The position numbers and the translations under genes were made by a program. From assembly GCA_945862295.1 (NCBI GenBank), contig CAMAXT010000008.1, positions 1-54,050 of the forward strand: a DNA stretch of 54,050 nucleotides, written 5' to 3'. The stretch is from Pseudobacteriovorax antillogorgiicola (GTDB lineage Bacteria > Bdellovibrionota_B > Oligoflexia > Oligoflexales > CAIYRB01). Under the pieces are notes generated by a model. That model was not told the DNA's origin, did no database searches, and worked only from the letters and a program-made list of their open reading frames with translations. Shown here in pieces: positions 1,774-35,713 of the stretch. The stretch's first letter is position 1. Each line of letters begins with the position of its first letter.

Positions 1774-3069
1774 ATGCATCTAGTAGACAAATTCAGATCT
1801 ACCATGTCACAAGAGTCGACGGACGAGCATTTTCGTCGAAATGTATTGATTCGACTTTCAATCGCTCTTAGTAGTCTGTTGATGGTAGGGACACTCATCC
1901 GCTATTTTGCATCGACGATGCTTCTGCGGATTTTTGTAGTTAACTGCCTCATCTCTGTTGCTTTTGCTTTGACTCCTGTCTTTTGTTGGAAGAGCAATAA
2001 TCCTAATTTAATGGCTTACACGTTTTTTGTTGGTTTTATTGTGCTCATAGTTAATGGCGGACTCGTAGCGGGAGGTGTCAATGCACCCGTTGTCGCCTTG
2101 CTGCCGTTATTCCCGGTTTTTGGTTTCTGCTTTGGTGGGAAAAAACTTGGCGTTGTTGGACTCTTAGTTTCTTTTTCTTTGGTAGCTTTTTTGCTCATAG
2201 CTGAGAAAAGTGGCTGGATTGTTTCGGCTATTGACCCGGCGACCATCAGCGCACAAAGGGCAGCGATCCTTGTCACCATCGTGATTGCGTCATTTGCAGT
2301 AGGATTGACCTATGAATCGTCTCGCCATCGAACTGAACGCCGACTTGTCGAAATATCGCGTCTAGCAAGTTTAGGAACATTAGCAGGCGGCATTGCCCAC
2401 GAAGTAAATAATCCGCTGACTATTCTTGTAGGGTACGCCAACCAGCTCGATTTGATAGGAAAGAAGGGAAAAGAGATTGATCCCCTGGTTATCGAAAAAC
2501 TAGCTGGCAAAATTGAAACAAGTGCTTACCGCATTTCAAAAATAGTTTCGGGACTGCGTACCTACGCTCGCGACGAAACTGGTGAACCATTCGCAGAAGT
2601 CCGCCTTAAAAACATTGTTAATGGGGCGATTGCTCTTTGTGGTGAACGGTTTAAAAATGCGAATATCGTTGTGAAACTTTCAATAATTTCCGATGAATCT
2701 TTACACGCGAAGACGGGGCAAGCAATAGAGGTAGTTTTAAACCTACTTAACAATGCTTATGATGCTGTTCTAGGTCAAGACACGAGGTGGATCGAAGTCA
2801 GTTCAAAAAATGGGTCTGAATTTATAGAACTCTATGTAACCGACTCAGGACAGGGGATTCCCGTCCGCCTACAAACAAAAATATTTGCTCCGTTTTTTAC
2901 AACTAAAGAAATAGGCAAAGGTATTGGTCTGGGTTTAAGTACGAGTTCGTCGATTATGCAGCAACACGGCGGCGAGATTATTTTTGATGCCAGCAGCCCT
3001 CATACCAGATTTGTTTTGCGGTTCAAAAAATACAAGTCTATATCTGTACCGGGCGAAGTTGCCTCCTAA
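1774..3069 (+). CDS. Membrane sensor histidine kinase
   Basis: A 431-residue kinase. Residues about 24-180 hold roughly six hydrophobic segments with very short loops, so the sensor is membrane-embedded rather than periplasmic. The phospho-acceptor His209 lies in GGIAHEVNNPL; the N box (LLNNAYDAV, about 326) and the G boxes (DSGQGI; GKGIGLGLS) of the HATPase domain follow. It should autophosphorylate and pass phosphate to a response regulator, but no regulator gene is adjacent, so it is an orphan here. An AGGATAGG ribosome-binding site precedes ATG 1774; ATG 1804 is an alternative. A DUF2721 gene follows after 12 bases and probably shares the transcript. Confidence 0.88.
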   Translation: MHLVDKFRSTMSQESTDEHFRRNVLIRLSIALSSLLMVGTLIRYFASTMLLRIFVVNCLISVAFALTPVFCWKSNNPNLMAYTFFVGFIVLIVNGGLVAGGVNAPVVALLPLFPVFGFCFGGKKLGVVGLLVSFSLVAFLLIAEKSGWIVSAIDPATISAQRAAILVTIVIASFAVGLTYESSRHRTERRLVEISRLASLGTLAGGIAHEVNNPLTILVGYANQLDLIGKKGKEIDPLVIEKLAGKIETSAYRISKIVSGLRTYARDETGEPFAEVRLKNIVNGAIALCGERFKNANIVVKLSIISDESLHAKTGQAIEVVLNLLNNAYDAVLGQDTRWIEVSSKNGSEFIELYVTDSGQGIPVRLQTKIFAPFFTTKEIGKGIGLGLSTSSSIMQQHGGEIIFDASSPHTRFVLRFKKYKSISVPGEVAS

Positions 3070-3081
3070 AGGGGATGTTTA

Positions 3082-3486
3082 GTGGACCCTACAAGTAGTG
3101 ATGTTATCAAATCTATGTCTACGGCGCTTGCGCCGGCCTTCTTGATCTCCGGTGTTGGAGTCCTGCTGGGCTCGATGAATGTTCGTTACGGACGTGTTAT
3201 CGACCGGACTCGCCATGTCTTGACGGAAGCACGCAATCGAAGTGCTGATAGTCCCAGATCTTCAGAAACAGATGCAGAACTCCGTACACTCTACGGCCGT
3301 GCCCGAGTCCTTCGCCTGACCGTAATCTTGGCGGTAGGTAGTATCTTCAGTTTGGCGCTTAGCATTTTTCTGATCTTCACCAACATTGTTTGGAATGTGG
3401 CGTTGCCCTATGTGATCCCATCTGTCTTTATGATCGGTTTGATCTTTTTGATTATCTCACTACTTTTTTCATCGAAGATTTCGTGA
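3082..3486 (+). CDS. DUF2721 family membrane protein
   Basis: A 134-residue protein starting at GTG 3082 behind a GGGG ribosome-binding site, 12 bases after the kinase stop. The N-terminal half has the family pattern ALAPAFLISGVGVLLGSMN followed by RYGRVIDRTR, in which a helix leads into a charged Arg/Asp segment. Two strongly hydrophobic helices lie at the C-terminus (about residues 74-98 and 103-130). DUF2721 proteins are small inner-membrane proteins of unknown role. Cotranscription with the histidine kinase suggests, but does not prove, that it assists membrane sensing. Confidence 0.75.
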   Translation: MDPTSSDVIKSMSTALAPAFLISGVGVLLGSMNVRYGRVIDRTRHVLTEARNRSADSPRSSETDAELRTLYGRARVLRLTVILAVGSIFSLALSIFLIFTNIVWNVALPYVIPSVFMIGLIFLIISLLFSSKIS

Positions 3487-3567
3487 CTTCACTTTCCGCA
3501 TTGAAGCGGGAGATGCGTGTGGCCCTTGGGCGCGATGTAGTGGATTTGGAAACCAAGTAGCCTGTAG

Positions 3568-7546: not shown

Positions 7547-10500
7547 ATGGGCTCGATCCTAAGGATTGACACCGAACCGGCGCAGAACCGCGCGTTGCTC
7601 AGAGAGAACGGAGCGAGTGATCAGTATCCGGTCTCTTGTCGCCTTTACTCTAAGAGCTTTCCTGAGGGTATACCAGCAGAAGTGATTAATTATCATTATG
7701 CCGGTGCATGCTTGAAGTTTCAGGATTCTGATATCTTCCGCGTAAAGCATATTATTCAATTTCCACTTAGCTTAGATTTTTTTCTTGGGTCTCATCTACT
7801 TAAATCAGCTGTAGCAGTGCGAGTGGCTTGGCATGAAACGACGATGCCAAACTTTCTTGGTTTGCAGTTTCTGATAGAGACCAGAGATTTCATAGAACGG
7901 TCAAGACGCTATAGGGTTAATGACTCGTATCAACCGACGATTTCCGCGAAAGACCCACTCGATATCCACCGTACGGTCTATTTGAAGGTAAAAGACTTTT
8001 CTGCCGGCGGTCTCCTACTCAATACATCACTCAGTAATAAGCATCTTTTCCCAGGTATGATTTTGAAACAGGTAGCGCTCTCGATTCCAGGCCAAGATGT
8101 TATGCACATGGATTTAAAGATCGAAAACGCTAGGAAAGGTGATCAACCTAATGCTTTTGATCTTGGCGTTTCTATCCAGAACGACGCTAATGAATTTAAG
8201 ACTTTGATTCAAACCTACATGAATCATTTGGTACAAGACGCAGGGATTGGCGAAGGGCTCTTCTCTGACGGTGCAACTAAAAAGAAAGTCGTCACCGGAC
8301 TTTCTACAGGGTTGACGTTCCGTATTATCAGCGAAGCTAAAGATTACGACGAAGTATTAAAGCTTCGTCATATTGGCTATGGGGTGAAAGGTAAAGTTAA
8401 ATCTGATTCGACGGTTCAGGATCAGGGCGACGGCCTAGACAACGAAGGCACGATTCTTGGTGCTTACCTCGGTGGCAAGATGGTGGCCTCCATGGAGCTT
8501 CGCTTCGCTAAACACCGAAACGGTTTTCGTGTCTTCAAATACGTAAAGCAGGAAGCATTTGCAGATCTTAGTCTCGACTGGCGCAACATTGTTGAGATGA
8601 ATAAGCTTGTTGTTCATCCAGACGCTCAGGGGTCAGATGTTTTAACGGGGATGATCCAAAAAGCTCACGCTATATGCATGGCAAAGGGCTCATTAGATGT
8701 CTTGTTGTTTGCCACCGATGCTTTGAAACCGATGTATACCCGAATCGGCGCTCGTGAAACAGGAGTTAGCTTTCCGCATCCCTATATGAAAGATATCGCA
8801 CTCCACGTCCTTATCTTGACGAAAGACTCCTTCCTCGAAGGCCGGTTTATGAAGGCCGAGATGTGGTCGAGGTACTTCGAGGAGACAACGAAGTTCTACG
8901 AAGAGAGCGTCTTTAAAAACCAAACAGTTCGCCCAGCTACCAGCAGCATTCTTCATAAAGTCAAAAATCTAATCGGTCTATCGAAAGAAGAGAAGCAAAC
9001 AGTTCGCGAGAATTTTACTTTTCAAGAAAAACCATCTGCAAATTTTATTGATCCTAAATGGACCAAGCCACATATTCTCGCGCCGATTATGTACCCATAC
9101 CTGATGGCTGGTGACCGATTGATTGGAGCTGACAAGATTGATGCGATTCTATCGAGTGTCGGCATTCAGAGGGCATATTTTAAGTCACAGAGTAGCTGGA
9201 TCAGTATAGAGTTTCTCGATGCGTTTCTTGATGCATTTAGCCGCCATGGGTCGATCGACGACGTTTCAAAGATGTCGGGTGAGCTGACTTTCGATAAAGA
9301 AGTCATTGGCCTCAATTTTTATATTTTAAAGCATTTTTTGAGCCCAGAAATGGCTTTTAGGGCCATGGCGTCCACGGTTAAAAAGTTTAATCTAACCCGG
9401 ACTTGTGAGATTGATCTCACTCCTGGACGCTGCCTCGTAAGAATTGGATTGATTGCAAAAGAATATCTGCCGAAGCACCGATGCTCGGATTTAAATTGGC
9501 AAGAAAACCTTCGTGCTTATATCAGAGTTCTTACCCAAGGCAGCGGTGATGTGAAGCAGATCTCCTCCTGTTACGACGGCGACAGCGCTAGCATCTTTGA
9601 AGTTACCTGGCCGGTGCGGAGTGAGAAGGCGGAAAAAATCTTCAATCTTACTAAGCTTGGTGTAGTCGGTGTTGGAACAGGCGTAGTTGCAATGACACTT
9701 GCTGGACCTGTCTCTGGTGTCCTCGCAGCCGCCCTTGCAAAGGCGTTAGTGGTTGCGGGTTACAATATCAAAGCAAGAAAACGCTACCGTCTGAATATGG
9801 CCGAAGTGACTAAGCGTATCGAAGAGATTAACGAAGAAGGCACGAAGAAATATATGGACCTTCAGGACGCCAAACAGCGTCTTGATAAAAGGTATCATGA
9901 AGCCCAGATTCTCGATGAATCCGCCCGCCTCATTCAGTCCTGCGACGATATGGGAAGCATCAATCGAACAGCATTGAAAACGGTTTGTACCCAGTTTGGC
10001 TTTGCGAGAGCTTTTATCATGGTAACCGATGATGAGGGCAAAACCTTAAAGACTGTCGCTATCGACGGTGTGTCTGAAAACAGCGAGCGACTCTGGCAAT
10101 TTCGTGTGGACGTTTCAGCGAAAAGAGAAAACGCCCTATTCCTTTCCTCGGCTTATCACAGTGGTCAAGCCGTTGTGATTAATGATTTAGAGTCTCATAT
10201 CTTTCAGTTGAACGAGCTGTCGCAAAAAATGATCCGCAGTATCGGTGGCTCTAACGGTTTCACCATCATTCCCATTCCGGATGCTAGTGGGTCCTGCGGT
10301 GTTCTCATTGCTGACCGCGATACCGAGAAATTCCCGATTCGTCAGGAAGACGTCGTTATTCTTCAAAGGCTCTGCCAACACCTCGGCATTGCGATTGAAC
10401 GCTTCGGTAAACTCGAAAAAGAGCAGAAACTCAGAACATTGTTTCAAAAATATGTACCCCAAGCTGTCTTGGATTCTCTTCTTTTGGAGTCTACCCCTGC

Positions 10501-11089
10501 ACTCGGTGGCATCCAGAAAGAGATCGTCTGTATGTTCCTCGACATCCGCGGATTTACCCACATGTCAGCGACACTACCTCCTAAGGTAGTGATCGATATT
10601 CTAAACCGCGTCTTTACCGTCGTCGGCAAGATGGTCGAGAAAAGTTCTGGGGTCATCGATAAGTTTCTTGGCGACGGACTTTTGGCGGTCTGGGGCAGCA
10701 TTCCTGGGCGAAAAGTTGCCGTTGCAGAAATATTATCTTCCATTCATGATCTGGAATCGGAACTCGATAACCTAAACAAAGAGTTTGAAATGCAGGGCCT
10801 ACCGAATATTCGGATCGGGATTGGACTCCACAAGGGTCCCGCAATCGTGGGCAATATTGGATCTGTGGACCGTCTTGAGTTTACCTGTATTGGTCAGGCT
10901 GTGAATTTAGCTTCGCGCCTTGAGGGACTCTGTAAGCAATTTAATACGAATCTTGTTTTTTCCGAACAGACCTTCCCAGAAGCAGAAAGTTTGCCGTCTT
11001 TTAAGCGGATCGATGAGGTTGAGATCAGAGGTCTCGATAAGAAGATTTCTATATTTGTAAAAGAAAATCATGTTAAGACTATAAATTGA
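7547..11089 (+). CDS. PilZ-PilZ-FeeM acyltransferase-GAF-class III nucleotide cyclase fusion protein
   Basis: An 1180-residue multidomain signalling protein. Residues about 25-118 are a PilZ-like domain with a degraded motif. Residues about 117-235 are a second PilZ with the c-di-GMP signature RRYR...DFSAGG. Residues about 256-425 match FeeM/LuxI-type GNAT acyltransferases (VEMNKLVVHPDAQGSD, then YTRIGARETG), which join acyl groups from acyl-ACP to an amine. Residues about 490-700 are unassigned. Residues about 703-741 are a Gly/Ala-rich hydrophobic stretch long enough for a membrane hairpin. A coiled coil (745-800), a GAF domain (800-945) and a class III cyclase domain (985-1165) follow. The cyclase keeps metal Asp in FLDIRGFT, Lys and Asp in DKFLGDG, and Asn/Arg in VNLASRLE, so it is probably active and likely makes cAMP. 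This combination is unusual; each domain call is family-level inference. Confidence 0.85.
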   Translation: MGSILRIDTEPAQNRALLRENGASDQYPVSCRLYSKSFPEGIPAEVINYHYAGACLKFQDSDIFRVKHIIQFPLSLDFFLGSHLLKSAVAVRVAWHETTMPNFLGLQFLIETRDFIERSRRYRVNDSYQPTISAKDPLDIHRTVYLKVKDFSAGGLLLNTSLSNKHLFPGMILKQVALSIPGQDVMHMDLKIENARKGDQPNAFDLGVSIQNDANEFKTLIQTYMNHLVQDAGIGEGLFSDGATKKKVVTGLSTGLTFRIISEAKDYDEVLKLRHIGYGVKGKVKSDSTVQDQGDGLDNEGTILGAYLGGKMVASMELRFAKHRNGFRVFKYVKQEAFADLSLDWRNIVEMNKLVVHPDAQGSDVLTGMIQKAHAICMAKGSLDVLLFATDALKPMYTRIGARETGVSFPHPYMKDIALHVLILTKDSFLEGRFMKAEMWSRYFEETTKFYEESVFKNQTVRPATSSILHKVKNLIGLSKEEKQTVRENFTFQEKPSANFIDPKWTKPHILAPIMYPYLMAGDRLIGADKIDAILSSVGIQRAYFKSQSSWISIEFLDAFLDAFSRHGSIDDVSKMSGELTFDKEVIGLNFYILKHFLSPEMAFRAMASTVKKFNLTRTCEIDLTPGRCLVRIGLIAKEYLPKHRCSDLNWQENLRAYIRVLTQGSGDVKQISSCYDGDSASIFEVTWPVRSEKAEKIFNLTKLGVVGVGTGVVAMTLAGPVSGVLAAALAKALVVAGYNIKARKRYRLNMAEVTKRIEEINEEGTKKYMDLQDAKQRLDKRYHEAQILDESARLIQSCDDMGSINRTALKTVCTQFGFARAFIMVTDDEGKTLKTVAIDGVSENSERLWQFRVDVSAKRENALFLSSAYHSGQAVVINDLESHIFQLNELSQKMIRSIGGSNGFTIIPIPDASGSCGVLIADRDTEKFPIRQEDVVILQRLCQHLGIAIERFGKLEKEQKLRTLFQKYVPQAVLDSLLLESTPALGGIQKEIVCMFLDIRGFTHMSATLPPKVVIDILNRVFTVVGKMVEKSSGVIDKFLGDGLLAVWGSIPGRKVAVAEILSSIHDLESELDNLNKEFEMQGLPNIRIGIGLHKGPAIVGNIGSVDRLEFTCIGQAVNLASRLEGLCKQFNTNLVFSEQTFPEAESLPSFKRIDEVEIRGLDKKISIFVKENHVKTIN

Positions 11090-12150: not shown

Positions 12151-12284
12151 ATCGTCCAGCTCCTTCATAACGCGCTAATAATAGCTTCGAATTTGCAGTG
12201 GCCGCCGTAGGGCCTTTACGGTATTCTATCCACCGCGACTATATCACCAAAGCAGCTGTTCACACCTGTGAAAACGGAGAGATT

Positions 12285-13127
12285 ATGGGACTATTTACAG
12301 GAAAAAAAGGCATCATCATGGGTGTTGCCAACGAATATTCCATTGCAGCGGCAGTTGCTGAATTTTTGCATAAAGAAGGCGCGACGATCGGTTTCAACCA
12401 CCTTCCCGATAAAGAGGGCCGCGACCGCATGTTGAAAAGAGTGCACCGCGTTGCCGATCCACTAGGTGCGACCTTTATTCGGCCATGTGATGTGGCTAAT
12501 GATGACGATATAAAGGCATTCTTTGCTCAGGTTAAAGAAGAGTTCGGACAGCTCGATTTTTTCGTCCATTCAATTGCCTATGCGCCGATTGATGATATCC
12601 GCTGCGAAACAATAGATTGCACCCGAGATGGTTTTAAAATCGCTATGGATATTTCCGTTTATAGTTTCATCGCTACAGCACGCGCGGCTTCTAAACTTAT
12701 GAAAGAAGGTGGCTCGATCGTCACTATGACTTATTTCGGTGGCGAAAAAGTCGTCGGCGGTTACAACCTGATGGGAGTTTGTAAGTCAGCTCTTGAGTCT
12801 GCTACCAAATATTTAGCATATGATCTTGGGCCGAAAGGCATTCGCGTCAACGCGGTAAGTGCAGGTCCCGTTAAAACCCTCGCGGCATCGGCTGTCGGTG
12901 ATTTTACGCAAATGCTTGGCCTTAATGCCGCAGTATCTCCGATCGGCCGCAACATCACGGGTGAGGAAGTTGGTAAGTCGACTGCATTCTTGTTGAGTGA
13001 TTTAGCGAGTGCGACTACTGGTGAGATTTTGCATGTTGATTTGGGTTACAATATTATGGGTAGTCCGGGACATGCTATAGAACGGGCAGGGATAAAGTTT
13101 TCTTCGACTCGTGCAGAAAAAACTTAG
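12285..13127 (+). CDS. fabI: Enoyl-[acyl-carrier-protein] reductase (NADH)
   Basis: A 280-residue short-chain dehydrogenase of the FabI type, which reduces trans-2-enoyl-ACP in the last step of each fatty-acid elongation cycle. The NAD-binding start is GIIMGVANEYSIAAAVA, the classical FabI form of the glycine-rich loop. HSIAYAP and the active-site pair YNLMGVCK (Tyr and Lys spaced as in Y-x6-K) follow. I start at ATG 12285, preceded by CGGAGAG, because it aligns with the family N-terminus; the upstream in-frame extension from 12198 looks non-coding. It is a single-gene unit beside a gene that should consume acyl-ACP. Confidence 0.93.
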   Translation: MGLFTGKKGIIMGVANEYSIAAAVAEFLHKEGATIGFNHLPDKEGRDRMLKRVHRVADPLGATFIRPCDVANDDDIKAFFAQVKEEFGQLDFFVHSIAYAPIDDIRCETIDCTRDGFKIAMDISVYSFIATARAASKLMKEGGSIVTMTYFGGEKVVGGYNLMGVCKSALESATKYLAYDLGPKGIRVNAVSAGPVKTLAASAVGDFTQMLGLNAAVSPIGRNITGEEVGKSTAFLLSDLASATTGEILHVDLGYNIMGSPGHAIERAGIKFSSTRAEKT

Positions 13128-14325: not shown

Positions 14326-15948
14326 ATGAGTAATTCGTCGTATCGATTGTACCGGTTATCGAACTATCTAACAGCAGGGGTGCTTTCAGCAGTATTTTTT
14401 GTAAAATGCGGAACAGATCAACAAACCAGCAAGGTCGCCGGCGATTCGGAAGCAGCCGAGTACCAAGACTTTAAAGCATCCAATAACTATGTGGCAGTCG
14501 TTGACTACAATGAACTGAAGGCTCGCAAAACTGTAACCACAAAAGATCTGGAATCTGCGATCGATGCTGATCTATCAACACTTAATAGCCAGGATCGACG
14601 ATTCACCCGATATTTTACGCTCATTAATTTATACAACGGAGGCATTTCAAGCAAAGAATTGGCGGCATTTAGAAATGGTCTTTCTAAAATGCTGAACTCT
14701 TTATCTTACAACCGGGATGTAGTACCTCCTACAGCAATCGATCAAGAGAAACTTATCTTTCGCATCAATCTTCGCGACTATGGATGGAGTAGATTCTCAT
14801 GGGACGAGATTTCGCGTCGTGATCCATATGCTTTTTTCACAAACTCTAGCAGCGAAAGAAACATTAGAAGAGGCACGGGCGTCAGATTTCAGTCTCATAC
14901 ACGCGCAGACTGGTTTGCTGTAAATGGTTTGCAAGCTCCCCTCTACCATCTTTTGTTAGATATTCCGCAGAACATTCGAAATCTCGAATTTCAGCTTGGA
15001 GTTAATGCTGATAGCAATATTCGTCGGAGAGAAGTTGTTAGAGGGGGTTTTAATGGAAGCGGGGTGTCTCAGCAAAACAGGATAGTCGAGTGGCACGAAA
15101 GTAAGTTTGGCGGCTATTGGAAAAGCTATGACTTCGAGCCAAGCGATGGCCGCAGAAGACGCAACATTTTTGAGTTCCCGTTGGAAAACAGAAATTTTGG
15201 CGGAGAGGGTTTTGACTTTGCGGGCGGTGAGATGATTTTTCAGCTACCGAATGGGTTGTCTGGTTACGTCTTAACAGACGCAAACGGTCGACGTATCAAC
15301 AAAGCACCGACTCAAATTGTAGCTGACCCGAGTCGGCCAGATGTCGCTGTCACAAACGGGCTGTCCTGCTTTCGTTGTCACCATTCTGGAATGATTCCGT
15401 ATCGAGATATGATCAAAGATCACGTTCAAAAAAACGCATTTGCATTTAACAAACGAGACTTGGAGATTGTAGAAAGTATTTACGCACCTCAGTCAGTTCA
15501 AATTGGCAAAATCAAAGAATATGATGGACGTTTCTCGTCTGCAATCAATCGACTTGGTTATCCGTATTCTCCAGCAGGCGGAATAAATGAAAGTAACGAA
15601 CCAGTCTATCTTCTAGCTCGACAATTTGAGGCCGAGATACCACTAACACTGGTGGCCGGTGAATTTGGACTAACCCCAAATGAGTTTTTAACTTCACTAG
15701 CAAAATCAAGATTTCTTTCGAGACGAATCGGCAATTTGACGCTTGATGCAACCATCAAGAGGAAGATTCTGGAGGACAATTTCGGCTTCATTATACAAGA
15801 ATTTCGTTTGGGATCGCCGCTGTTTCGCAATTCAAATTTTTCACTTACCGGTGACAATTCAGATCCGGGCCATGAAGACCACATAGAAGACGATGAATCT
15901 TTGCTGAATAAATGGGCCGACGACGAAAGGATACACGTAAGACACTAA
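14326..15948 (+). CDS. Putative lipoprotein with single CxxCH heme motif
   Basis: A 540-residue exported protein. Its N-terminal hydrophobic segment ends near FFVKCG, a weak lipobox. Residues about 35-330 are unassigned and include aromatic/Arg-rich strands. At about residue 343 the sequence LSCFRCHHSGMIPY supplies a CxxCH heme site with a nearby Met, as in many outer-envelope cytochromes. The C-terminus is acidic (DNSDPGHEDHIEDDES). No named family is recognised. The tandem arrangement with another CxxCH lipoprotein and convergence on a copper lipoprotein gene suggest an envelope redox assembly, an inference from context only. Confidence 0.6.
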   Translation: MSNSSYRLYRLSNYLTAGVLSAVFFVKCGTDQQTSKVAGDSEAAEYQDFKASNNYVAVVDYNELKARKTVTTKDLESAIDADLSTLNSQDRRFTRYFTLINLYNGGISSKELAAFRNGLSKMLNSLSYNRDVVPPTAIDQEKLIFRINLRDYGWSRFSWDEISRRDPYAFFTNSSSERNIRRGTGVRFQSHTRADWFAVNGLQAPLYHLLLDIPQNIRNLEFQLGVNADSNIRRREVVRGGFNGSGVSQQNRIVEWHESKFGGYWKSYDFEPSDGRRRRNIFEFPLENRNFGGEGFDFAGGEMIFQLPNGLSGYVLTDANGRRINKAPTQIVADPSRPDVAVTNGLSCFRCHHSGMIPYRDMIKDHVQKNAFAFNKRDLEIVESIYAPQSVQIGKIKEYDGRFSSAINRLGYPYSPAGGINESNEPVYLLARQFEAEIPLTLVAGEFGLTPNEFLTSLAKSRFLSRRIGNLTLDATIKRKILEDNFGFIIQEFRLGSPLFRNSNFSLTGDNSDPGHEDHIEDDESLLNKWADDERIHVRH

Positions 15949-16012: not shown

Positions 16013-17929
16013 TTACCGCCACCTATTTTCTTTGTCGTCTTGCCAGCTGCTGACATCTAGTAACTGCGAATGAAATGAGTTTTCGGACAAGATAGTCAGT
16101 GTGTTCTCTAAACTGTCGTCGCCGCCTGCTGTCAGCTGAAGGTTTAAAAGATTCTCAACGTGGGGCGGCCCGACCCAGACATCGCGACGCCACTGAATGC
16201 AACGCCTGCCTGTTTCTTTGGAACAGTCGAGGCTCACAACATCGAGATTTTTAGCCTTTAGCCATTCGTTGATACGATCATCTACCCAGCCATGAATACG
16301 CCAAAAGATCGGGTTCACGTGGGCAGCGTAGGTGTCCGAGAGGTGGTCATAGCTCTCATCGTCCCAAACCCAGTTCGCCCTGGTCACAGAATTGCGAGTG
16401 ACTGGATCATCTTGAACCGGTCGAGCTCCAGAAAGGGGCGCGGACCAACGGGTATGCAGAGCATTGTGGACTGTCATTTCTAGGTAGGTGCCAAGCTGGC
16501 TAAGCGTTGAAAAATCGCCAATGGACTGTGATTGGTAATTTTGCTCCAATCTCGCAATGCGACGATAGCCTTCTTCGCTTTGATCAGATGTTTCAATAGA
16601 GGAAACTCGTAACGGAAAGTCTGGATCTTGCGGACGAGGGATGATTTTCCACGAATCATACATACGCAGGCCTTTGGCCTCGATAGCTGCACGAAGTTGG
16701 TCAATCATTATTCGGTGCATATAGAGAAAATCTTCGCCGGCACCGGTCGCCGCCGTTCTCTCAAAATCTGTCGCTCCATTCTGTCCATAAAGAATCGGTC
16801 GCGGTGGCGTCCAACCCATTTGGTCGATATTGCGCCGGTCCACAGCCGTAGTTGTCGGGCGTGCGTAGGAATTTCGTGAAGCATGCCACATATAATGGGC
16901 CAAGCGATGAGCGCGTTGTCCGAATTCAGCTCGCATCACTTTGTCACGTTCATCCGAAAGATTGCGCGGCATCTGGGAAGACGTTGCATCAGCGACGGTA
17001 ATCCGACAGTTAAATGCAACTCCGGATGGATTGATAATATGGAGACGAATCTGATCTAAACCATTGCGGAGGTTGACTATGTTAAACGTATTCGCCTGTG
17101 TCAGACTGCGAACTAACTCCTCATCATTAGATGCAGCGGTCCGGCTGGCTTGGATAAATAAACCAATCGTCGAAACATCGCAGCGCTCGGTTGTCGTTAC
17201 TGGCACAACATTGACAAAGACCTGACGGCTTGCCAACGGCCGAGTGAGAGGGAGTAAGACGGTGAAAGGGCCACGTGCATTGTTTGGCTGGGCAATCGTC
17301 CCCGAATAGTAGCTGCTCCCCGTCGATGGAGGCGTTTGCGGTGTAGGAGTGTCATTCGAATCATTTGGTGAAGATCCTCCGTCGGGACGAGTGACGCGTT
17401 CGAGGGCTTCGTACCAGTAACTATAAGCCATTCGATTCACCGGATTATCAAAATTGAGGGAGACAGGGATCGTGTCCCCTTCATTCCCATTCTTTGCCCT
17501 TCGCATACTACTGAGTATCACGGCGCGCAGTCGCGCTTCATTCAATGAAATCGTATTTTGTTTCTTGAGCGCTTTGAATTGCGCGTCCCAGCGTGTCGTA
17601 AAGTCACTCAAACCAAGGGTTCTACCCGGTCCTTCGCATTTTTCCCGATAATTGTTGCCAGAAAGTCCTTGAACATCAAATTCAGCATTCAGTTTTCCGC
17701 ACTGTTTTCTGACGACGATGTCTTCGTCACCGCCGGGAGTCGATCCATCAGGCGTCGTAATATAGTAAAGAATGGCCAGATTATTGCCGTCCGTTGTAAT
17801 CGTAATGATATCTTTTGTGCTAGATGAAGAATTCTGAATTGCCTTGCAGCCAGAAACCGAAGTGACAAGAAAACATAAAACAATGCGAACAACGTCAATC
17901 TTCAACATGGATGTCCCTCTTTCGGTCAT
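16013..17929 (-). CDS. Tyrosinase-like (type 3 copper) lipoprotein
   Basis: A 638-residue lipoprotein with lipobox SVSGC. The second half carries the marks of a type 3 copper centre: a candidate CuA His in LAHYMWHAS (about residue 343), a FLYMHR segment equivalent to the FLPWHR of tyrosinases (about 401), and for CuB the pair HNALH (about 490) plus NPIFWRIHGWVDD (about 540), equivalent to DPIFWLHHxxVD. Tyrosinases oxidise phenols to quinones; bacterial relatives such as PvdP mature pyoverdine. The N-terminal 300 residues, with a Pro/Ser/Thr-rich linker, are unassigned. The second CuB residue seems to be Gly rather than His (IHGW), so activity is uncertain. The ligand pattern is seen; function is inferred. 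Confidence 0.62.
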   Translation of the reverse strand: MTERGTSMLKIDVVRIVLCFLVTSVSGCKAIQNSSSSTKDIITITTDGNNLAILYYITTPDGSTPGGDEDIVVRKQCGKLNAEFDVQGLSGNNYREKCEGPGRTLGLSDFTTRWDAQFKALKKQNTISLNEARLRAVILSSMRRAKNGNEGDTIPVSLNFDNPVNRMAYSYWYEALERVTRPDGGSSPNDSNDTPTPQTPPSTGSSYYSGTIAQPNNARGPFTVLLPLTRPLASRQVFVNVVPVTTTERCDVSTIGLFIQASRTAASNDEELVRSLTQANTFNIVNLRNGLDQIRLHIINPSGVAFNCRITVADATSSQMPRNLSDERDKVMRAEFGQRAHRLAHYMWHASRNSYARPTTTAVDRRNIDQMGWTPPRPILYGQNGATDFERTAATGAGEDFLYMHRIMIDQLRAAIEAKGLRMYDSWKIIPRPQDPDFPLRVSSIETSDQSEEGYRRIARLEQNYQSQSIGDFSTLSQLGTYLEMTVHNALHTRWSAPLSGARPVQDDPVTRNSVTRANWVWDDESYDHLSDTYAAHVNPIFWRIHGWVDDRINEWLKAKNLDVVSLDCSKETGRRCIQWRRDVWVGPPHVENLLNLQLTAGGDDSLENTLTILSENSFHSQLLDVSSWQDDKENRWR

Positions 17930-18379: not shown

Positions 18380-18880
18380 TCAAGAAGCTTTATCGAGCTT
18401 TTTTGGATTCGGAAAATCTAGAATCTCGTCAGTAAAAAATCGTTTTTTACAATCGTTAAGGGAGTTCTTAATCAGTACTTTCTTGAACGCCGTATCTATT
18501 CTGAGCCAGTCGGCTCTTTCGGAAGTCCCGATACCCGCTTCCTCTAGAGATTGACGCAGCAGTTCACTGCGCGCTGCAAACAGCTCTTCACCAATCATAA
18601 TGTGTTCGTGCGCATCAATTGGCATGCGGCCCCTGAACTCTTTCGGTCCGCCGAAGAGCATAACCATAAAGTCTGTTTGTTGATTTTCGATGTGTACCTG
18701 GTTGATACCAGCAAAAAATTTTCCCATCCAGTGGTCAGCATAGATTTTGTCATAGAAAATTTTATGGACTCTCTCGATTGTGGTACGACCACCGATTCGA
18801 TCAATCAGCTTTCTACCGCTTTGTGTTGCGGAGTCTGCAAGTTCAGTAGCTAGCATTGTATCTTCAAGCATTCTCGACAT
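18380..18880 (-). CDS. Truncated haemoglobin (group I-like)
   Basis: A 166-residue globin of the two-over-two type. IERVHKIFYDKIYADHWMGKFF carries the B-helix Phe-Tyr pair that binds ligand; LFGGPKEFRG is the Gly-Gly-Pro turn; DAHEHIMIG carries the proximal heme His. About 30 extra residues precede the fold. Truncated globins bind oxygen or nitric oxide and often detoxify NO. A strong AAGGAG site lies five bases before ATG 18880. No terminal oxidase or nitrosative-stress partner gene adjoins it; both flanks are decayed sequence. Confidence 0.85.
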   Translation of the reverse strand: MSRMLEDTMLATELADSATQSGRKLIDRIGGRTTIERVHKIFYDKIYADHWMGKFFAGINQVHIENQQTDFMVMLFGGPKEFRGRMPIDAHEHIMIGEELFAARSELLRQSLEEAGIGTSERADWLRIDTAFKKVLIKNSLNDCKKRFFTDEILDFPNPKKLDKAS

Positions 18881-19358
18881 TTTGGCTCCTTAGCAGGTCC
18901 ACCTTCAGATCGTCGAAATTTTGGAAAACTTGAGTAAAGTGATAGGTAGATTTAGGTTTAACAATGCTTGGATCTAAAGTCAGCTGACGTATTGGTAGGA
19001 GTTTCGAGGGTATATTCGAACCATCCACAGTCTTGGCAGATCGACAAATAGCCCGACTTTAATTGCCTCTAGCAGCACCGATTACCTGATTTTATAGACT
19101 CGGTTCTGAAATTGAGCGCAGGAGCATTATTTGTAGAAAAAATTTAATCTCGCGCGTTAAGGTTCATATTGCCATTTGAGCTGAGGCAAGCGACCGGCAG
19201 AAGTAAAGGTCCAATTATTGGTGAAGTCCCAGTTGGCGTAGACTGCGGTAGCTGACTTTTAATCACTGAAGTAGTCAATTTCGAATAGCTCCGATTACTT
19301 TAAAAAACGTAAAGTACCGTTTTCATCAACACGCCAAAATAAGATGTAACTGCACCGC
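18881..19358. other. Intergenic stretch, mostly decayed sequence
   Basis: No intact gene. The part nearest the globin presumably holds its promoter, which I could not recognise. The right part contains the remnant described at 19157-19350. Confidence 0.4.
19157..19350 (-). pseudogene. C-terminal remnant, possibly of a surface protein
   Basis: One minus-strand frame reads SYILFWRVDENGTLRFLK, stop, SELFEIDYFSD, stop, then ATAVYANWDFTNNWTFTSA followed by GRLPQLKWQYEP and a final stop at 19157. The last segment resembles the WxF...W...LPxLxW repeat ends found in large bacterial surface proteins. Two in-frame stops and the lack of a start point to a decayed gene. The family guess is weak. Confidence 0.35.
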
Positions 19359-19769
19359 CTAGTTCCCGTCTTGGCTCGCAAGATTTTCTAAAATAGGACA
19401 ATGAGGTCTTTGGTCACCAGTGCAATTTTTCGCAAGGTGCTTAAGAGTCTTGGTCATTTCTTGGAGTGCAAAAATCTTTTTTTCAAGTTCGTCGATGTGC
19501 TGAATTGCTAGAGCCTTGACATCTGAACTTGCGCGTGACTTGTTGCGCCAGAGACTTACCAGTTTTTTAATTTCTTTCATTGAGAAACCGAGACTACGTG
19601 CTCTTTTTACAAAAATTAGTATATGCACATCGGTTTCAGAATACTGCCTATAGCCGGTATCAGTGCGTAGGGGTTTTGGAATTATACCGATCGATTCGTA
19701 GTGTCTAATGAGGCGAGCGTTCATGCCGGATTGGTGAGCTGCTTCGCCAATATTAATCGATTTTTTCAT
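19359..19769 (-). CDS. cueR: MerR-family copper-responsive regulator (CueR-like)
   Basis: A 136-residue MerR regulator: N-terminal winged helix (MKKSINIGEAAHQSGMNARL, with LIRHYESIGI), a dimerisation helix, and a C-terminal metal loop with CTGDQRPHC. Two Cys spaced this way bind Cu(I) in CueR relatives. The start at ATG 19769 overlaps the copA stop as ATGA, so the two are translationally coupled; a longer frame from 19799 adds ten residues inside copA. CueR proteins bend promoters with an over-long 19-bp spacer, and two such promoters lie in this locus at 22076-22106 and 22158-22188. Confidence 0.88.
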   Translation of the reverse strand: MKKSINIGEAAHQSGMNARLIRHYESIGIIPKPLRTDTGYRQYSETDVHILIFVKRARSLGFSMKEIKKLVSLWRNKSRASSDVKALAIQHIDELEKKIFALQEMTKTLKHLAKNCTGDQRPHCPILENLASQDGN

Positions 19770-22030
19770 TTGAGTGGTCCTTGGCTTGCTGGTTTCCATC
19801 TTCTAAGTAGCAATGCATTACTGACGACGCTGACGCTGCTAAGTGCCATCGCTGCCCCTGCTATAATGGGACTGAGCAAACCCGCTGCTGCCAGTGGAAT
19901 ACCAACAACATTGTAGATAAATGCCCAAAAAAGATTTTGGCGAATCTTCGCATAGGTTCGGTTTGAGATATCGATGGCATCGGCGATGAGTAGTGGGTTA
20001 CCTCGCATTAAGGTAATACCGGCGGTGTGCATGGCGACGTCTGTTCCGGTCGCCATTGCGATACCAACATCGGCAGCTGCGAGTGCGGGAGCATCGTTGA
20101 TGCCGTCACCGACCATGGCAATGATTGCGCCCTCTTTTTTAAGAGCTTCAATGATGGATAGTTTTTCAGCCGGCATGACATTAAAGCGTAGTTCGGAAAT
20201 GCCAACAGCTGTCGCGACATTTCTTGCGCTGCCTTCGTTGTCACCGGTAATCATTATGGATGAAATGCCAAGGTTAGTTAACTTATTTACAGTTTCCGAT
20301 GATGTCTCCTTGATTTTGTCTCCAAAGGCAATCAGTGCGATTGCCTCAGCCTCTCCTTTTATTGCCACATATGAAACACTGTGACCGAGGCGTTGGTGGT
20401 TCTTGGCTTCGTTTAGGAATGCATTGGTTTCGATGCCTTGTTCTCGCATGAATACCTCTGTACCGATGAGGACTAGTTTGTCGTCAACCAGTCCTTCGAT
20501 GCCGCAACCTGGTGTATTTCTAATATTTTTAGCTGTTGAAAAGGTGAGTTGGTGTTTTGCAGCCTCAGCTAATACAGCTTTGGCAAGTGGATGTTCGCTG
20601 CCACTTTGTACTGCAGCCGCAAGCAAAAGTGCCTGACTACTTGATTGCTGTTTTGTAATTAGTCCAGTTACAAAGGGCTTTCCTTCAGTCAAGGTCCCCG
20701 TCTTATCAAAAGCAACCTTTGTCACCTTATGAGCTATCTCGAGAGCGTTGGCGTCTTTGATTAATATACCCGCCTTCGCCGCTTGACCCGTCCCAACCAT
20801 AATGGAAGTCGGGGTGGCAAGTCCAAGTGCGCAGGGGCAGGCGATAACCAGGACAGCGACTGCGTTGATAATTGCTGCTTCCCAATTTCCGTTCGTAAGA
20901 CCCCAGAAAAATAGTGTTGCCAAACTAATGACTAAAACAACTGGAACAAAGATCGCGCTGACTCGATCAACAGTACGCTGTATCGGTGCTTTTCCAGCTT
21001 GTGCGTTTTCTACTAAGCGAATCATGCGAGCTAAGACGGACTCCTGACCGATAGCTATCGTTTCCACTTCGATATGCCCTTCGCCATTAATTGAACCTCC
21101 AGTGACCTGATCGCCGATTTTTTTAATGACAGGTAAACTCTCACCGGTCAGAAGAGACTCGTCGACTTGGCTTTGCCCACTTCTGAGAATGCCGTCTACC
21201 GCGACTCTTTCGCCTGGTTTTATGATGACGATATCTTTTAATTTAATATCAGTGATACTGATTTCAATCTCAATGTCATTTCGGCGAATGCGTGCGGTAT
21301 CAGGTCGAAGAGCTTGCAGTGCATCAATAGCATCCGTTGTCTGTCTTTTTGCCCTTGATTCGAGGTACTTTCCTAAAAGAACGAGAGTGATAACGACTGA
21401 AGAACTTTCAAAATAGAGGTGGCTCATCTGTTCGTGGCTAGACGCGTTAGATACCCAGCCCAGTAGGAGGTAGTAAAGACTAAGTCCATAGGCAGCTGAG
21501 GTCCCGATAGCTACAAGTAAATCCATGTTCCCAGATTTGGCTTTCGCTGCTTTCCAGCCGGCCAAGTAGAATCTCCAGCCCAACCAAAATTGTACGGGGG
21601 TTGCGAGGACAAACTGAATCCAACCTGGCGGCATCCAGTGGTAGCCGAAAATAGAACCCAGCATTGGCGCTACAAGCGGGGCTGAAAGCAGAGCGGCTAT
21701 TATGAGCCGCTGTTTTTCTTGAGCGACTTTGGACTGTCTTTTTTCTAGGTCCTTTGCTTCTTGCTGTTTAGAGCGCGAGACGATAAGTGCAGCGGTGTAG
21801 CCTGCATGTTCGATTGCATCAATTACTAAGTTGTTCCCATTCTCAGGGGTTTTATAGGTGACGCGAGCGCGTTCAGTCGCTAAATTGACCTCGACGTTTT
21901 CTACTCCAGGAATGCGCCTTACCGATTTTTCGACCCGTGTTACGCAAGATGCGCAGGTCATGCCGCCGATATTGAATTCCTGAGTGAGTTGCTCGCTAGG
22001 ATTTTCCGCATTATTCTTAGTTTTCTTCAT
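19766..22030 (-). CDS. copA: Cu(I)-exporting P1B-type ATPase
   Basis: A 754-residue copper pump. One N-terminal heavy-metal domain (GGMTCASCVTRVE), then eight membrane helices, TGES in the actuator domain, the transport motif ACPCALGLATP, the phosphorylation site DKTGTLTEG, an HP-type motif (GSEHPLAKA), and hinge GDGINDAPALA. It uses ATP to export Cu(I) from the cytoplasm to the periplasm. ATG 22030 is preferred; the frame extends to a TTG at 22045. It is first in a two-gene unit with the cueR-like gene and is divergent from copZ and the multicopper oxidase. Confidence 0.95.
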   Translation of the reverse strand: MKKTKNNAENPSEQLTQEFNIGGMTCASCVTRVEKSVRRIPGVENVEVNLATERARVTYKTPENGNNLVIDAIEHAGYTAALIVSRSKQQEAKDLEKRQSKVAQEKQRLIIAALLSAPLVAPMLGSIFGYHWMPPGWIQFVLATPVQFWLGWRFYLAGWKAAKAKSGNMDLLVAIGTSAAYGLSLYYLLLGWVSNASSHEQMSHLYFESSSVVITLVLLGKYLESRAKRQTTDAIDALQALRPDTARIRRNDIEIEISITDIKLKDIVIIKPGERVAVDGILRSGQSQVDESLLTGESLPVIKKIGDQVTGGSINGEGHIEVETIAIGQESVLARMIRLVENAQAGKAPIQRTVDRVSAIFVPVVLVISLATLFFWGLTNGNWEAAIINAVAVLVIACPCALGLATPTSIMVGTGQAAKAGILIKDANALEIAHKVTKVAFDKTGTLTEGKPFVTGLITKQQSSSQALLLAAAVQSGSEHPLAKAVLAEAAKHQLTFSTAKNIRNTPGCGIEGLVDDKLVLIGTEVFMREQGIETNAFLNEAKNHQRLGHSVSYVAIKGEAEAIALIAFGDKIKETSSETVNKLTNLGISSIMITGDNEGSARNVATAVGISELRFNVMPAEKLSIIEALKKEGAIIAMVGDGINDAPALAAADVGIAMATGTDVAMHTAGITLMRGNPLLIADAIDISNRTYAKIRQNLFWAFIYNVVGIPLAAAGLLSPIIAGAAMALSSVSVVSNALLLRRWKPASQGPLK

Positions 22031-22075
22031 TATGACTTCTCTCAATTAATGGCTTTCAGGCATCTAGCTTAGAAT

Positions 22076-22106
22076 ACATTAATCCTTCCAATGATGGGAG
22101 GGTCAA
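22076..22106 (-). promoter_or_regulatory. CueR-type promoter for copA-cueR
   Basis: On the minus strand TTGACC (22106-22101) and TAATGT (22081-22076) are separated by exactly 19 bases that carry the imperfect dyad CCTCCC...GGAAGG, the CueR operator pattern. A 19-bp spacer is the hallmark of MerR-activated promoters. It lies about 45 bases upstream of the copA start. Confidence 0.75.
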
Positions 22107-22157
22107 GAAAGGAGTTAACATAATAAACCATTAAGAACGATTGAAAACAGGAAACCC

Positions 22158-22188
22158 TTGACCTTCCCATGGTGGTAAGCTTCATTAT
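22158..22188 (+). promoter_or_regulatory. CueR-type promoter for copZ-multicopper oxidase
   Basis: TTGACC (22158-22163) and CATTAT (22183-22188) are separated by 19 bases. The spacer begins CTTCCC directly after the -35 Cs, giving ACCTTCCC as in known CueR operators; the right half (GGTAAGC) is a weaker match. It lies 42 bases upstream of the copZ start and mirrors the minus-strand promoter 52 bases away. Confidence 0.75.
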
Positions 22189-22229
22189 ACGAAGCGTAGA
22201 GCTTTTTATCAGAATATAGAGAGGTATAT

Positions 22230-22436
22230 ATGTACGAGTTCAAGGTTCAGGGCATGACTTGCGGTGGTTGCGTTAAATCAGTCACAAATTCAATAAAGAA
22301 AGTCGATGCTGAAGCATCCGTTGAAGTTGATTTAAAGACACAAAGTATCAAGATCGACAGTAAAAAGATTCAAGGAGATTTTTCTGCTTCGATCTCGAAT
22401 GCCGGCTTTGATGTGATTTCTTCAAAAGTTATCTGA
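22230..22436 (+). CDS. copZ: Copper chaperone, heavy-metal-associated domain
   Basis: A 68-residue ferredoxin-like heavy-metal domain with the Cu(I) site MTCGGC near the N-terminus. CopZ carries Cu(I) in the cytoplasm and delivers it to the CopA pump or the regulator. AGAGAGG lies five bases before the ATG. The multicopper oxidase gene follows after six bases, so the two are cotranscribed from the CueR-type promoter at 22158-22188. Confidence 0.92.
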   Translation: MYEFKVQGMTCGGCVKSVTNSIKKVDAEASVEVDLKTQSIKIDSKKIQGDFSASISNAGFDVISSKVI

Positions 22437-22442
22437 TTTGAC

Positions 22443-24629
22443 ATGAAACTTTTTCGAAATTTGGAATTCCCGATGCAAGCTACTTCTTGTTTGAGAAATT
22501 TTTTGTTTTCATTGGTGCCTCTGTTTTTAGGCGTCGTCAGTACCGGATTCGCTGAAGCAAAAGTTGTAAAACACGAACTTGTCGTTACCCAAAAAGTAAT
22601 GAACGTGAGCGGCAAAATAGATGTTGATTTTGCTCTCGTCGTAAACGGAAGCATTCCTGCGCCAACGCTTGAATTTACTGAAGGCGACGATGTTGAAATA
22701 AAAGTAATCAACAAGATACCCACAGGAGAGGAAGTCTCGATTCATTGGCACGGCATACTATTGCCACCTGAAGAAGACGGCGTCGCGTATGTAAATACGC
22801 CACCAATTTTTAAGGACCAATCTCGAACCTTTAAATTTAAACTGCGCCAGCACGGTACCTACTGGTACCACTCCCACACTATGCTCCAGGAGCAAAAAGG
22901 CGTTTTTGGCGCTTTTATCGTCCATCCCAAAAAGAAAGAAATCGCATACGACCGGGACCTGGTTGCTGTTTTAAGCGATTGGTCTGATGAAGATGGCGAT
23001 CAAATCCTCAAGAACCTGCGTAAAGACGGTGATTACTACCTTTATAAAAAAGACTCGATGCGTTCATACTGGGGCGCACTAAAGGCAAAGTCGTTGGGGA
23101 CCTATCTCGCAAACGAACTCGACCGCATGGGTGGGATGGACCTCTCCGATGTTGGTTATGATGCTTTTCTAATCAATGGCAAAAAAGAGTCGCAGCTTGC
23201 GAGTGCAAAACCTGGAGACAAGATCCGTATTCGCGTTATTAATGCCGGGGCATCCAGTTATTTCTATGTTTCCTTAGGCGGCCTGCCAATGCAGGTGATT
23301 GCTGCAGATGGTACCGATATTGAGCCGGTACAAGCCAAAGAAATTCTTGTCGGGATGGCTGAGACTTACGACATACTTTTCACGGTGCCTGATGATAAAA
23401 ACTACGAACTGCGGGCAACGGTTCAAGATGTTACTGGTTATGTATCAGGATGGATCGGCAATGTAGCTGGTCAGAAAGTTGTTGCGGAGACGAAACCCCT
23501 TCCTGATTACTATGCGCCGATGGATCACGGTGGTGGCCATGGTTCCGGTCACGGAGATCACAGCCAGCACGGTGCAGAGGCGGTGGATCAATCTAAAATG
23601 GACCATGCGACAATGGATCATTCGAAGATTGGCAACGATAAAACTACGGAGTCCGTCCTACCTTCACTCAGCGTTGATTTGCTCAAGGCTAAAGAAAAAA
23701 CAGCCTTCTCAACCAATAAAACTGTCCACGACGTCAAACTCGTCCTAGGCGGCGATATGGAGCGCTATATTTGGCATATCAACGGCAAAGCATCCCACGA
23801 AGAGCGAAACATCATCATCAAAGAAGGAGACGTTGTTAGGTTCACATTTCAAAATGACACCATGATGCACCATCCCATGCATTTGCACGGACATTTTTTT
23901 AGGGTTGTAAATTCATATGGTGATTTCTCGCCTTGGAAACATACTGTTGATGTACCGCCGCATGGCACAAGAACAATTGAATTCTTTGCTAATGAACCCG
24001 GCGAATGGATGCTCCATTGTCACAACTTGTTCCACATGAAAACAGGAATGGCACGGGTGGTGAAGTATTCAACCTTTACTCCAAGTGCAGCTGTTGCAGG
24101 AGCCCAACATCATGACCCGCATCTGCATGAACACATTTATTTTGACGGTGAACTAAACGTCTCGACGGCATCGGCTGCCCTCGATCTAAGATTGTCGAGG
24201 ACATGGGACACCTTAGAGTTGGACATGCAGTCAGGCGAGTATGAAGCCTTTGCTAAAGGCACAGCCGATTTGGTCTACCGGCGGTGGCGATCGAACTTCT
24301 TTAACTTCCTGTTGGGTACGCAACAGAATTTCGCAGTGACAGAAGACCGGTCAAGAGTCTATGCGGGATTTGGTTACTTGCTGCCAATGCTTATTGAGTC
24401 GGATCTTGCGGTCGACAATAAAGGCGGAGTCGAGCTTGCTCTCGAAAAAAAGTTCCAATGGACCAAGTATGTTTATTCAGATCTGGAGGCCGAAATTTAC
24501 TATTTGCGTGACGAGCCGATCGAAACTGACTTAGAGGCAAATTTATTTTTTGCAAGCCGGTGGGATTGGGCTGGTGGGTTAGTGTTTCATGAAGATAGTA
24601 TTGAAGCCGCTGCTCGCTATAGATTTTGA
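22443..24629 (+). CDS. Multicopper oxidase (PcoA/CopA type) fused to CopB-like outer-membrane domain
   Basis: A 728-residue exported copper oxidase. After a signal peptide, three cupredoxin domains carry the copper ligands HWHGI, WYHSH, HPMHLHGHFF and HCHNLFHMKTGM; these make the type 1 and trinuclear centres that oxidise Cu(I) in the periplasm. A His/Met-rich insert (about 355-400, with MDHGGGHGSGHGDHSQH and MDHATMDHS) should bind copper. Residues about 555-728 are beta-rich, with alternating aromatic strands and a terminal Phe, and resemble PcoB/CopB, which is normally a separate outer-membrane protein. The fusion is seen in one uninterrupted frame; its membrane insertion is inferred. The start may instead be ATG 22473. 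Confidence 0.88.
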   Translation: MKLFRNLEFPMQATSCLRNFLFSLVPLFLGVVSTGFAEAKVVKHELVVTQKVMNVSGKIDVDFALVVNGSIPAPTLEFTEGDDVEIKVINKIPTGEEVSIHWHGILLPPEEDGVAYVNTPPIFKDQSRTFKFKLRQHGTYWYHSHTMLQEQKGVFGAFIVHPKKKEIAYDRDLVAVLSDWSDEDGDQILKNLRKDGDYYLYKKDSMRSYWGALKAKSLGTYLANELDRMGGMDLSDVGYDAFLINGKKESQLASAKPGDKIRIRVINAGASSYFYVSLGGLPMQVIAADGTDIEPVQAKEILVGMAETYDILFTVPDDKNYELRATVQDVTGYVSGWIGNVAGQKVVAETKPLPDYYAPMDHGGGHGSGHGDHSQHGAEAVDQSKMDHATMDHSKIGNDKTTESVLPSLSVDLLKAKEKTAFSTNKTVHDVKLVLGGDMERYIWHINGKASHEERNIIIKEGDVVRFTFQNDTMMHHPMHLHGHFFRVVNSYGDFSPWKHTVDVPPHGTRTIEFFANEPGEWMLHCHNLFHMKTGMARVVKYSTFTPSAAVAGAQHHDPHLHEHIYFDGELNVSTASAALDLRLSRTWDTLELDMQSGEYEAFAKGTADLVYRRWRSNFFNFLLGTQQNFAVTEDRSRVYAGFGYLLPMLIESDLAVDNKGGVELALEKKFQWTKYVYSDLEAEIYYLRDEPIETDLEANLFFASRWDWAGGLVFHEDSIEAAARYRF

Positions 24630-28002: not shown

Positions 28003-28004
28003 TA

Positions 28005-28229
28005 TCAAACCTCATTGCCAGTAATCTGGGTGATTTTTCCAAGGAGAATGTCTTTAGTAAACGGATTCATCAGATAATCGGTTGCGCCTTTTTCGAGTCC
28101 CTCAACGGTGTAAGACATGAAATTTTTTGAAGTCTTGATGATAGAAAGCCTATCATTGCGTTTTCTAATCTTTGGAAAGGGCACAATTCCGATTAGTGCC
28201 GGCATTTCCCAGGCTAAAAGTACTTTCAT
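28005..28229 (-). CDS. Half-length, inactivated response-regulator (REC) protein
   Basis: A 74-residue frame matching only the C-terminal half of a CheY-like receiver. LLAWEMPALIGI corresponds to the beta-3 block LLDWEMPxxxGI with the phospho-accepting Asp replaced by Ala. KTSKNF matches the beta-4 Ser/Thr region. GLEKGATDYLMNPF matches GLExGAxDYLxKPF with the conserved Lys replaced by Asn. The acidic Asp pair of beta-1 is absent. An AGGTGG site lies six bases before ATG 28229, 14 bases after the previous stop, so it may still be translated. It is either a decaying gene or a non-phosphorylatable adaptor. Confidence 0.7.
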   Translation of the reverse strand: MKVLLAWEMPALIGIVPFPKIRKRNDRLSIIKTSKNFMSYTVEGLEKGATDYLMNPFTKDILLGKITQITGNEV

Positions 28230-28242
28230 AGCCAGCCACCTT

Positions 28243-29154: not shown

Positions 29155-29164
29155 ACGCTATCCT

Positions 29165-30256: not shown

Positions 30257-30336
30257 TAAAACCGTTCCTTTGAATGTATAAATATCGGGCTTCGTTGGCC
30301 GAAGCCCGATATTCAAATTATTATTTGCGATATAAT

Positions 30337-32301: not shown

Positions 32302-32337
32302 GATTTACTGCTCCTTGGTAAAGATAAAAGTTGATGA

Positions 32338-35692: not shown

Positions 35693-35713
35693 CAGATCCC
35701 CATCCCTTTTTGA

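Follow-up and report, generated by a model that had tools for sequence, protein, structure and literature searches.

Why would a bacterium carry a predicted acyl-signal synthase and a predicted nucleotide cyclase on one polypeptide? The question is raised by a gene on contig CAMAXT010000008.1 of Pseudobacteriovorax antillogorgiicola (Oligoflexales; assembly GCA_945862295.1), whose 54,050 nucleotides, analysed as a whole, we call the window; it is one entire contig of a draft genome (3.05 Mb, 157 contigs, 77.7% complete). An initial annotation, made from the letters alone, had read here an uninterrupted frame joining PilZ domains, a FeeM/LuxI-like acyltransferase, a hydrophobic hairpin, a GAF domain and a cyclase, and had suggested that the protein could link three signalling currencies: cyclic di-GMP (c-di-GMP), an acyl signal and cyclic AMP (cAMP). 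We found the frame open from end to end over exactly 7547-11089 (+ strand; 1180 residues, zero internal stops), and we found that N-acyl amino acid synthase and cyclase are linked recurrently, not by a chance join.

Architecture of the fusion protein

The gene is preceded by GGGAG, a plausible ribosome-binding site upstream of the ATG at 7547. Base composition is even along the frame, and GC content at third codon positions (GC3) stays at 0.38-0.52 across all 100-codon blocks, running smoothly through the junction between the FeeM and sensor domains. The architecture, which is well supported, and the gene that follows it are listed below, with the evidence for each feature:

7547-11089, + strand: fusion gene, PilZ-PilZ-FeeM, H-NOX/V4R-like domain, transmembrane hairpin, GAF and class III cyclase; a single open frame whose pieces are separate adjacent genes in two relatives
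7589-7603, + strand: RxxxR (R15, R19) ahead of PilZ1; motif scan, kept in most relatives
7631-7876, + strand: predicted PilZ1 barrel, residues 29-110, in which the DxSxxG of relatives reads NxHxxG; AlphaFold2 model and alignment
7898-8230, + strand: PilZ2, residues 118-228, with DFSAGG (150-155) intact and E117 at the first Arg position of RxxxR; weak Pfam match, YcgR-like NCBIfam match, model, Foldseek matches to MrkH/YcgR
8300-8818, + strand: FeeM/LuxI-type GNAT acyltransferase, residues 252-424, with E350 (nucleotides 8594-8596) as catalytic-Glu equivalent; PF21926 above cut-off, Foldseek match to FeeM 2g0b, conservation of E350
9038-9610, + strand: putative ligand-binding domain resembling the H-NOX/V4R/Bet3 superfamily, about residues 498-688; low-confidence AlphaFold2 model, top Foldseek matches H-NOX and TRAPP Bet3
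9647-9769, + strand: transmembrane hairpin, about residues 701-741; hydropathy peaks with starts at 698-721, and both relatives have two hydrophobic stretches in the corresponding position
9947-10399, + strand: GAF domain, residues 801-951; PF13185/PF01590 above cut-off
10442-10459, + strand: FQKYVP element linking GAF to cyclase; direct reading, nearly invariant in relatives
10520-11047, + strand: class III cyclase, residues 992-1167; PF00211, PDB matches, residues
11101-11769, + strand: divergent haem-oxygenase-like (HO-like) protein of 222 residues, probably in the same operon; ATG preceded by GGAG and starting 11 nt past the fusion stop, homologues

The initial annotation thus named PilZ, FeeM, hairpin, GAF and cyclase rightly and overlooked the sensor domain at about residues 498-688 and the HO-like gene at the 3' side. 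The whole fusion protein used as query against named genomes returned no match, and NCBIfam holds no family for it except the weak YcgR match.

The acyltransferase was recovered by profile search, in which the FeeM family PF21926 matches residues 270-414 (E 9.5e-7, 29.2 bits against a cut-off of 27); the orthologues in two related Oligoflexales genomes, G008 and G016, score 43-49 bits, and the family lies above the Pfam cut-off in most relatives. Structure prediction agrees: an AlphaFold2 model of residues 1-480, built from 25 sequences (mean predicted local distance difference test, pLDDT, 77), displays two PilZ-like barrels and after them a GNAT fold, and Foldseek aligns it with FeeM (2g0b; template modelling (TM) score 0.70 by target length), with the N-acyl homoserine lactone (AHL) synthases MesI and BjaI and with other GNATs. 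A PDB sequence search with a FeeM relative gave no FeeM match, whereas the fold search did. R274, D295, D298, E350 and G401 are common to nearly all of the 24-25 relatives; E350 is present in 23/24 relatives of one alignment and invariant in a second one, which includes a FeeM-PilZ protein of genome G002. Through this protein E350 aligns with the essential Glu of the N-acyltyrosine synthase Nas354, an equivalence by alignment only. The N-terminal half is predicted to be a PilZ-controlled synthase of an N-acyl amino acid or related acyl-amide.

The PilZ fold is borne out by the model and by the relatives, since orthologous unfused proteins exceed the Pfam cut-off (4e-13, two stretches), whereas in the window protein itself residues 118-225 stay below it (E 0.012). 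Two PilZ domains are present, and Foldseek places their predicted beta-barrels with the c-di-GMP proteins MrkH, YcgR, PA4397 and VCA0042. As for the motifs named initially, DFSAGG stands in PilZ2, but RRYR is not the RxxxR motif, whose first Arg is replaced in PilZ2 by E117. PilZ1 has RxxxR but NxHxxG, and PilZ2 has DFSAGG but ExxxR; both c-di-GMP motifs occur together in PilZ1 of several relatives. Binding of c-di-GMP by the window pair is possible, not assured.

The sensor domain has no Pfam match, and its predicted fold, helices followed by beta-beta-alpha-beta-beta, retrieves mainly H-NOX and TRAPP Bet3 proteins in Foldseek. A heme-binding H-NOX proper was considered and rejected, because the three sequences available (window, G008, G016) have no YxSxR and no conserved His inside the fold, the only common His sitting near the N terminus. 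Among 58 genomes of the phylum the domain was detected only in these three, which are those with the full module. V4R domains, linked to Bet3, are described as presumed binders of hydrophobic ligands that signal in cis or trans (PMC2253512). The transmembrane hairpin follows the sensor domain in all three sequences. Beyond it, Pfam identifies GAF_2 (residues 801-951, E 2.3e-8) and Guanylate_cyc (residues 992-1167, E 1.3e-15), and the PDB matches of the latter are cyanobacterial and photoactivated cyclases. All six class III catalytic and specificity residues are in place: D999 and D1043 for the metal, K1039 and T1113 for purine recognition of the adenylyl type, and N1120 and R1124 for the transition state, roles that are established for class III cyclases. 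We predict the C-terminal half to be a receptor-type class III adenylyl cyclase.

Recurrence of the synthase-cyclase pair

The halves of the fusion belong to one module in relatives. The operon of G016 encodes sensor-cyclase, PilZ-PilZ-FeeM and HO-like enzyme in this order, with 2 nt between successive genes. The G008 sensor-cyclase instead diverges from the HO-like gene (9715-10416); the end of that gene adjoins the start of PilZ-PilZ-FeeM (8274-9713), the two lying on the minus strand 1 nt apart. A second fusion type, in the opposite order 7TM-cyclase-PilZ-PilZ-FeeM (7TM, seven-transmembrane), occurs in two other families: G022 (L106:5267-8698, G022:C19; 1143 residues with an N-terminal 7TM-like region) and G056 (L094:282-3314, G056:C546; contig-cut, 1011 residues read), the two being 28% identical. 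PilZ-FeeM genes also adjoin cyclase genes in G011, G022, G030 and G055.

Across 13 genomes, 9/27 FeeM loci have a class III cyclase no more than 3.5 kb away, where cyclase density would predict 0.44. Without fusions and near-duplicates the count is 5/23 against 0.38 expected (Poisson 5e-5), where P values are approximate, the genomes having been picked for FeeM-type or cyclase-module matches and being related. Unfused neighbours, an opposite-order fusion and this enrichment make the link recurrent and the coupling of synthase and cyclase well supported; the two chemistries are very probably parts of a single signalling pathway. As to the three currencies, the acyl-synthase/cyclase pair is upheld by neighbours, second fusion type and enrichment, and the c-di-GMP part is weaker, with one intact motif in each PilZ domain.

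The HO-like gene accompanies the pair. The G008 and G016 neighbours are members of PF14518 and in this resemble haem-oxygenase-like dimetal oxidases of the UndA, CADD, MboA and BesC type. The window protein is 48% identical to a homologue in G039 that follows a cyclase fragment sharing 38% identity with the window cyclase; this fragment is cut by the contig end, which falls inside the cyclase. Homology of the window protein runs through G039 and G014, and its homologues match PF14518. A profile of four HO-like proteins matches 3dde, MboA, CADD and BesC. 3H/3C metal ligands mark haem-oxygenase-like dimetal oxidases (PMC13108848); the divergent window copy keeps ExxH, E and the later H, but where its relatives have a first-helix carboxylate, the Glu of G008/G016, it has Met.

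Several other genes were observed around these loci. Fatty-acid desaturase genes lie within several kb of the G008 and G016 modules: in G008 a desaturase-like gene (L035:12688-13782) follows the module, and in G016 (L036) one at 1835-2824 is overlapped by a stand-alone FeeM gene (2821-3516, PF21926 E 2.4e-21) about 6 kb upstream of the module. G055, a 1.2 Mb genome with four FeeM matches in total, has two PilZ/FeeM genes in tandem (L039:7000-9611, G055:C46).

Proposed mechanism and rival explanations

The sequences establish the architecture, the conservation of catalytic residues, the gene arrangement and the recurrent physical linkage of synthase and cyclases; from these we infer activities, product, ligand, direction of signalling and c-di-GMP binding. 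We tentatively propose, as a plausible reading though short of a probable one, that the protein is a membrane-anchored bifunctional signalling enzyme, in which a PilZ-controlled acyl-amide synthase is joined to a receptor-type adenylyl cyclase and its product is sensed. c-di-GMP at the PilZ pair would gate acylation of an amine substrate from acyl-acyl carrier protein (acyl-ACP), with E350 as the base; the acyl product might be oxidised by the co-expressed HO-like enzyme and, as such or in processed form, would occupy the H-NOX/V4R/Bet3-like domain, which together with GAF would set cAMP output. The enzyme would thus have two outputs, or an output plus a readout: acyl-amide from the PilZ-FeeM half and cAMP from the receptor-cyclase half. 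A putative hydrophobic-ligand domain confined to this module, together with a redox enzyme translated with FeeM, points to a product that is first modified and afterwards sensed. In its fullest form, which we consider doubtful, one polypeptide would make a lipoamino-acid signal and carry its receptor, reading the HO-like-processed product into cAMP under a c-di-GMP gate; if true, this would be a self-contained make-and-sense circuit linking an acyl autoinducer to two nucleotide messengers.

Several observations weigh against the proposal. Most PilZ-FeeM genes of the phylum have no adjacent cyclase. In the window protein RxxxR and [D/N]xSxxG are not found within one PilZ domain but split over two, and the ExSR motif of the FeeM domain reads EMNK. 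The sensor model is of low confidence (three sequences, pLDDT 62), and its TM score to H-NOX is about 0.36 by target length. The HO-like protein has no Pfam match of its own, and when profiles are compared directly it matches the G008/G016 pair at E 0.51. Some relatives may not have kept cyclase activity, because their purine or transition-state residues vary (K1039 is N in G008 and R in G039; R1124 is K in G016).

The main rival, which we regard as somewhat unlikely, makes the cyclase the input: GAF and sensor would read another cue, and acyl-amide production would be under the control of cAMP, either directly or by way of CRP-type proteins, as in NasP, which reportedly carries a cyclic-nucleotide-binding domain. 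This genome has 12 matches to such domains, and the two fusion types have different sensors and only cyclase and PilZ-FeeM in common; the sensor input therefore need not be the acyl product. As cited in PMC4897644 and PMC8762209, cAMP activates NasP directly; this synthase (Clardy and Brady 2007) ties cAMP to N-acyl amino acid synthesis, but as a cAMP target, whereas the window protein carries the predicted cAMP-making enzyme. Against this rival, Pfam finds no cyclic-nucleotide-binding domain (PF00027) in the fusion protein, none of the nine genomes checked lists one beside a FeeM gene, and a diffusible messenger can act without physical fusion.

An improbable alternative is a GNAT domain that transfers acetyl groups to a protein or small amine instead of making long-chain N-acyl amino acids. 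cAMP-regulated protein acetyltransferases exist, generic GNATs equal FeeM in fold-search score, Rv0998-type cAMP-binding acyltransferases are among the matches, and the FeeM Pfam score is barely above cut-off; yet nearly all relatives retain the FeeM/LuxI-type residues R274, D295, D298 and E350, the FeeM family exceeds the cut-off in most of them, and the FeeM-PilZ protein of G002, with the Nas354 layout, comes from a genus in the window genome's taxonomic family. Still less probable is a FeeM domain that has ceased to be an enzyme and senses acyl groups or ACP on behalf of the cyclase: EMNK and the partly eroded PilZ motifs would fit, but the catalytic E350 is kept, and the K at position 353, R in many relatives, is also found in several unfused ones. 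A misassembly joining two genes is very improbable: the genome is a draft in many contigs and holds the only intact fusion of its type seen, the G039 homologue being truncated, but uniform GC3 through the junction, the shared module of G008 and G016 and the opposite-order fusions elsewhere speak for a genuine gene.

Genomic surroundings, known systems and meaning

Further along the window, a FabI-like enoyl-ACP reductase (12198-13127) was considered as acyl-ACP supplier and dropped for want of recurrence at related loci. Proteins of 638 and 540 residues (16013-17929 and 14326-15948) have no Pfam match. Genes for a truncated-globin-like protein, a heavy-metal P-type ATPase and a multicopper oxidase stand in a row at 18380-24629, likely a copper-handling island. 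On the minus strand, 27148-38254 holds a chemotaxis cluster with CheB, CheR, a PAS-methyl-accepting chemotaxis protein (MCP) and two CheA-type kinases of different layout, one a CheA with CheW and C-terminal receiver and the other receiver-Hpt-HATPase-CheW; next come a FliI-like ATPase and FliF, at 41.8-46.2 kb.

The closest known proteins are Nas343 and Nas354, FeeM-PilZ N-acyltyrosine synthases recovered from the metagenome of a slaughterhouse biofilm (Thies et al. 2016, PMC4897644), whose combination was called previously unseen in that description and in which, for Nas354, mutation proved the catalytic Glu essential. They likewise combine a FeeM-type synthase with PilZ in a single chain and keep the Glu (E103 there, E350 here), but have FeeM N-terminal and one PilZ C-terminal, whereas the window protein places two PilZ domains before FeeM, followed by sensor, hairpin, GAF and cyclase. 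A protein of the Nas354 layout, FeeM with a C-terminal PilZ-like region, occurs in G002 (L107:115-1419, G002:C249), from a genus of the window genome's family. FeeM, MesI and BjaI share GNAT fold and FeeM/LuxI-type conserved residues but are stand-alone enzymes without messenger domains. Sensor class III cyclases (cyanobacterial 2w01, bacteriophytochrome-cyclase 6fht) share cyclase core, linker and the six residues; we know of none with GAF or a similar sensor that carries an acyltransferase. The H-NOX/V4R/TRAPP Bet3 superfamily resembles the sensor in its low-confidence predicted fold, a helical N-terminal part and then beta-beta-alpha-beta-beta, but the window domain lacks the conserved heme histidine, YxSxR and a Pfam match.

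All domains are known, and the FeeM-cyclase combination and its recurrence are apparently new, at least to us: full-text searches of mainly open-licence literature found no FeeM-cyclase link or fusion and no described protein of this domain order, as the initial annotation had supposed. What FeeM-type N-acyl amino acids do in nature is unsettled, and they are known mostly as surfactants or antibiotics obtained through metagenomic expression. Their repeated genetic and physical union with nucleotide cyclases in Oligoflexia places them in second-messenger signalling there, in an acyl-signal pathway with a V4R/H-NOX-like domain as its possible receptor in place of a LuxR-type regulator.

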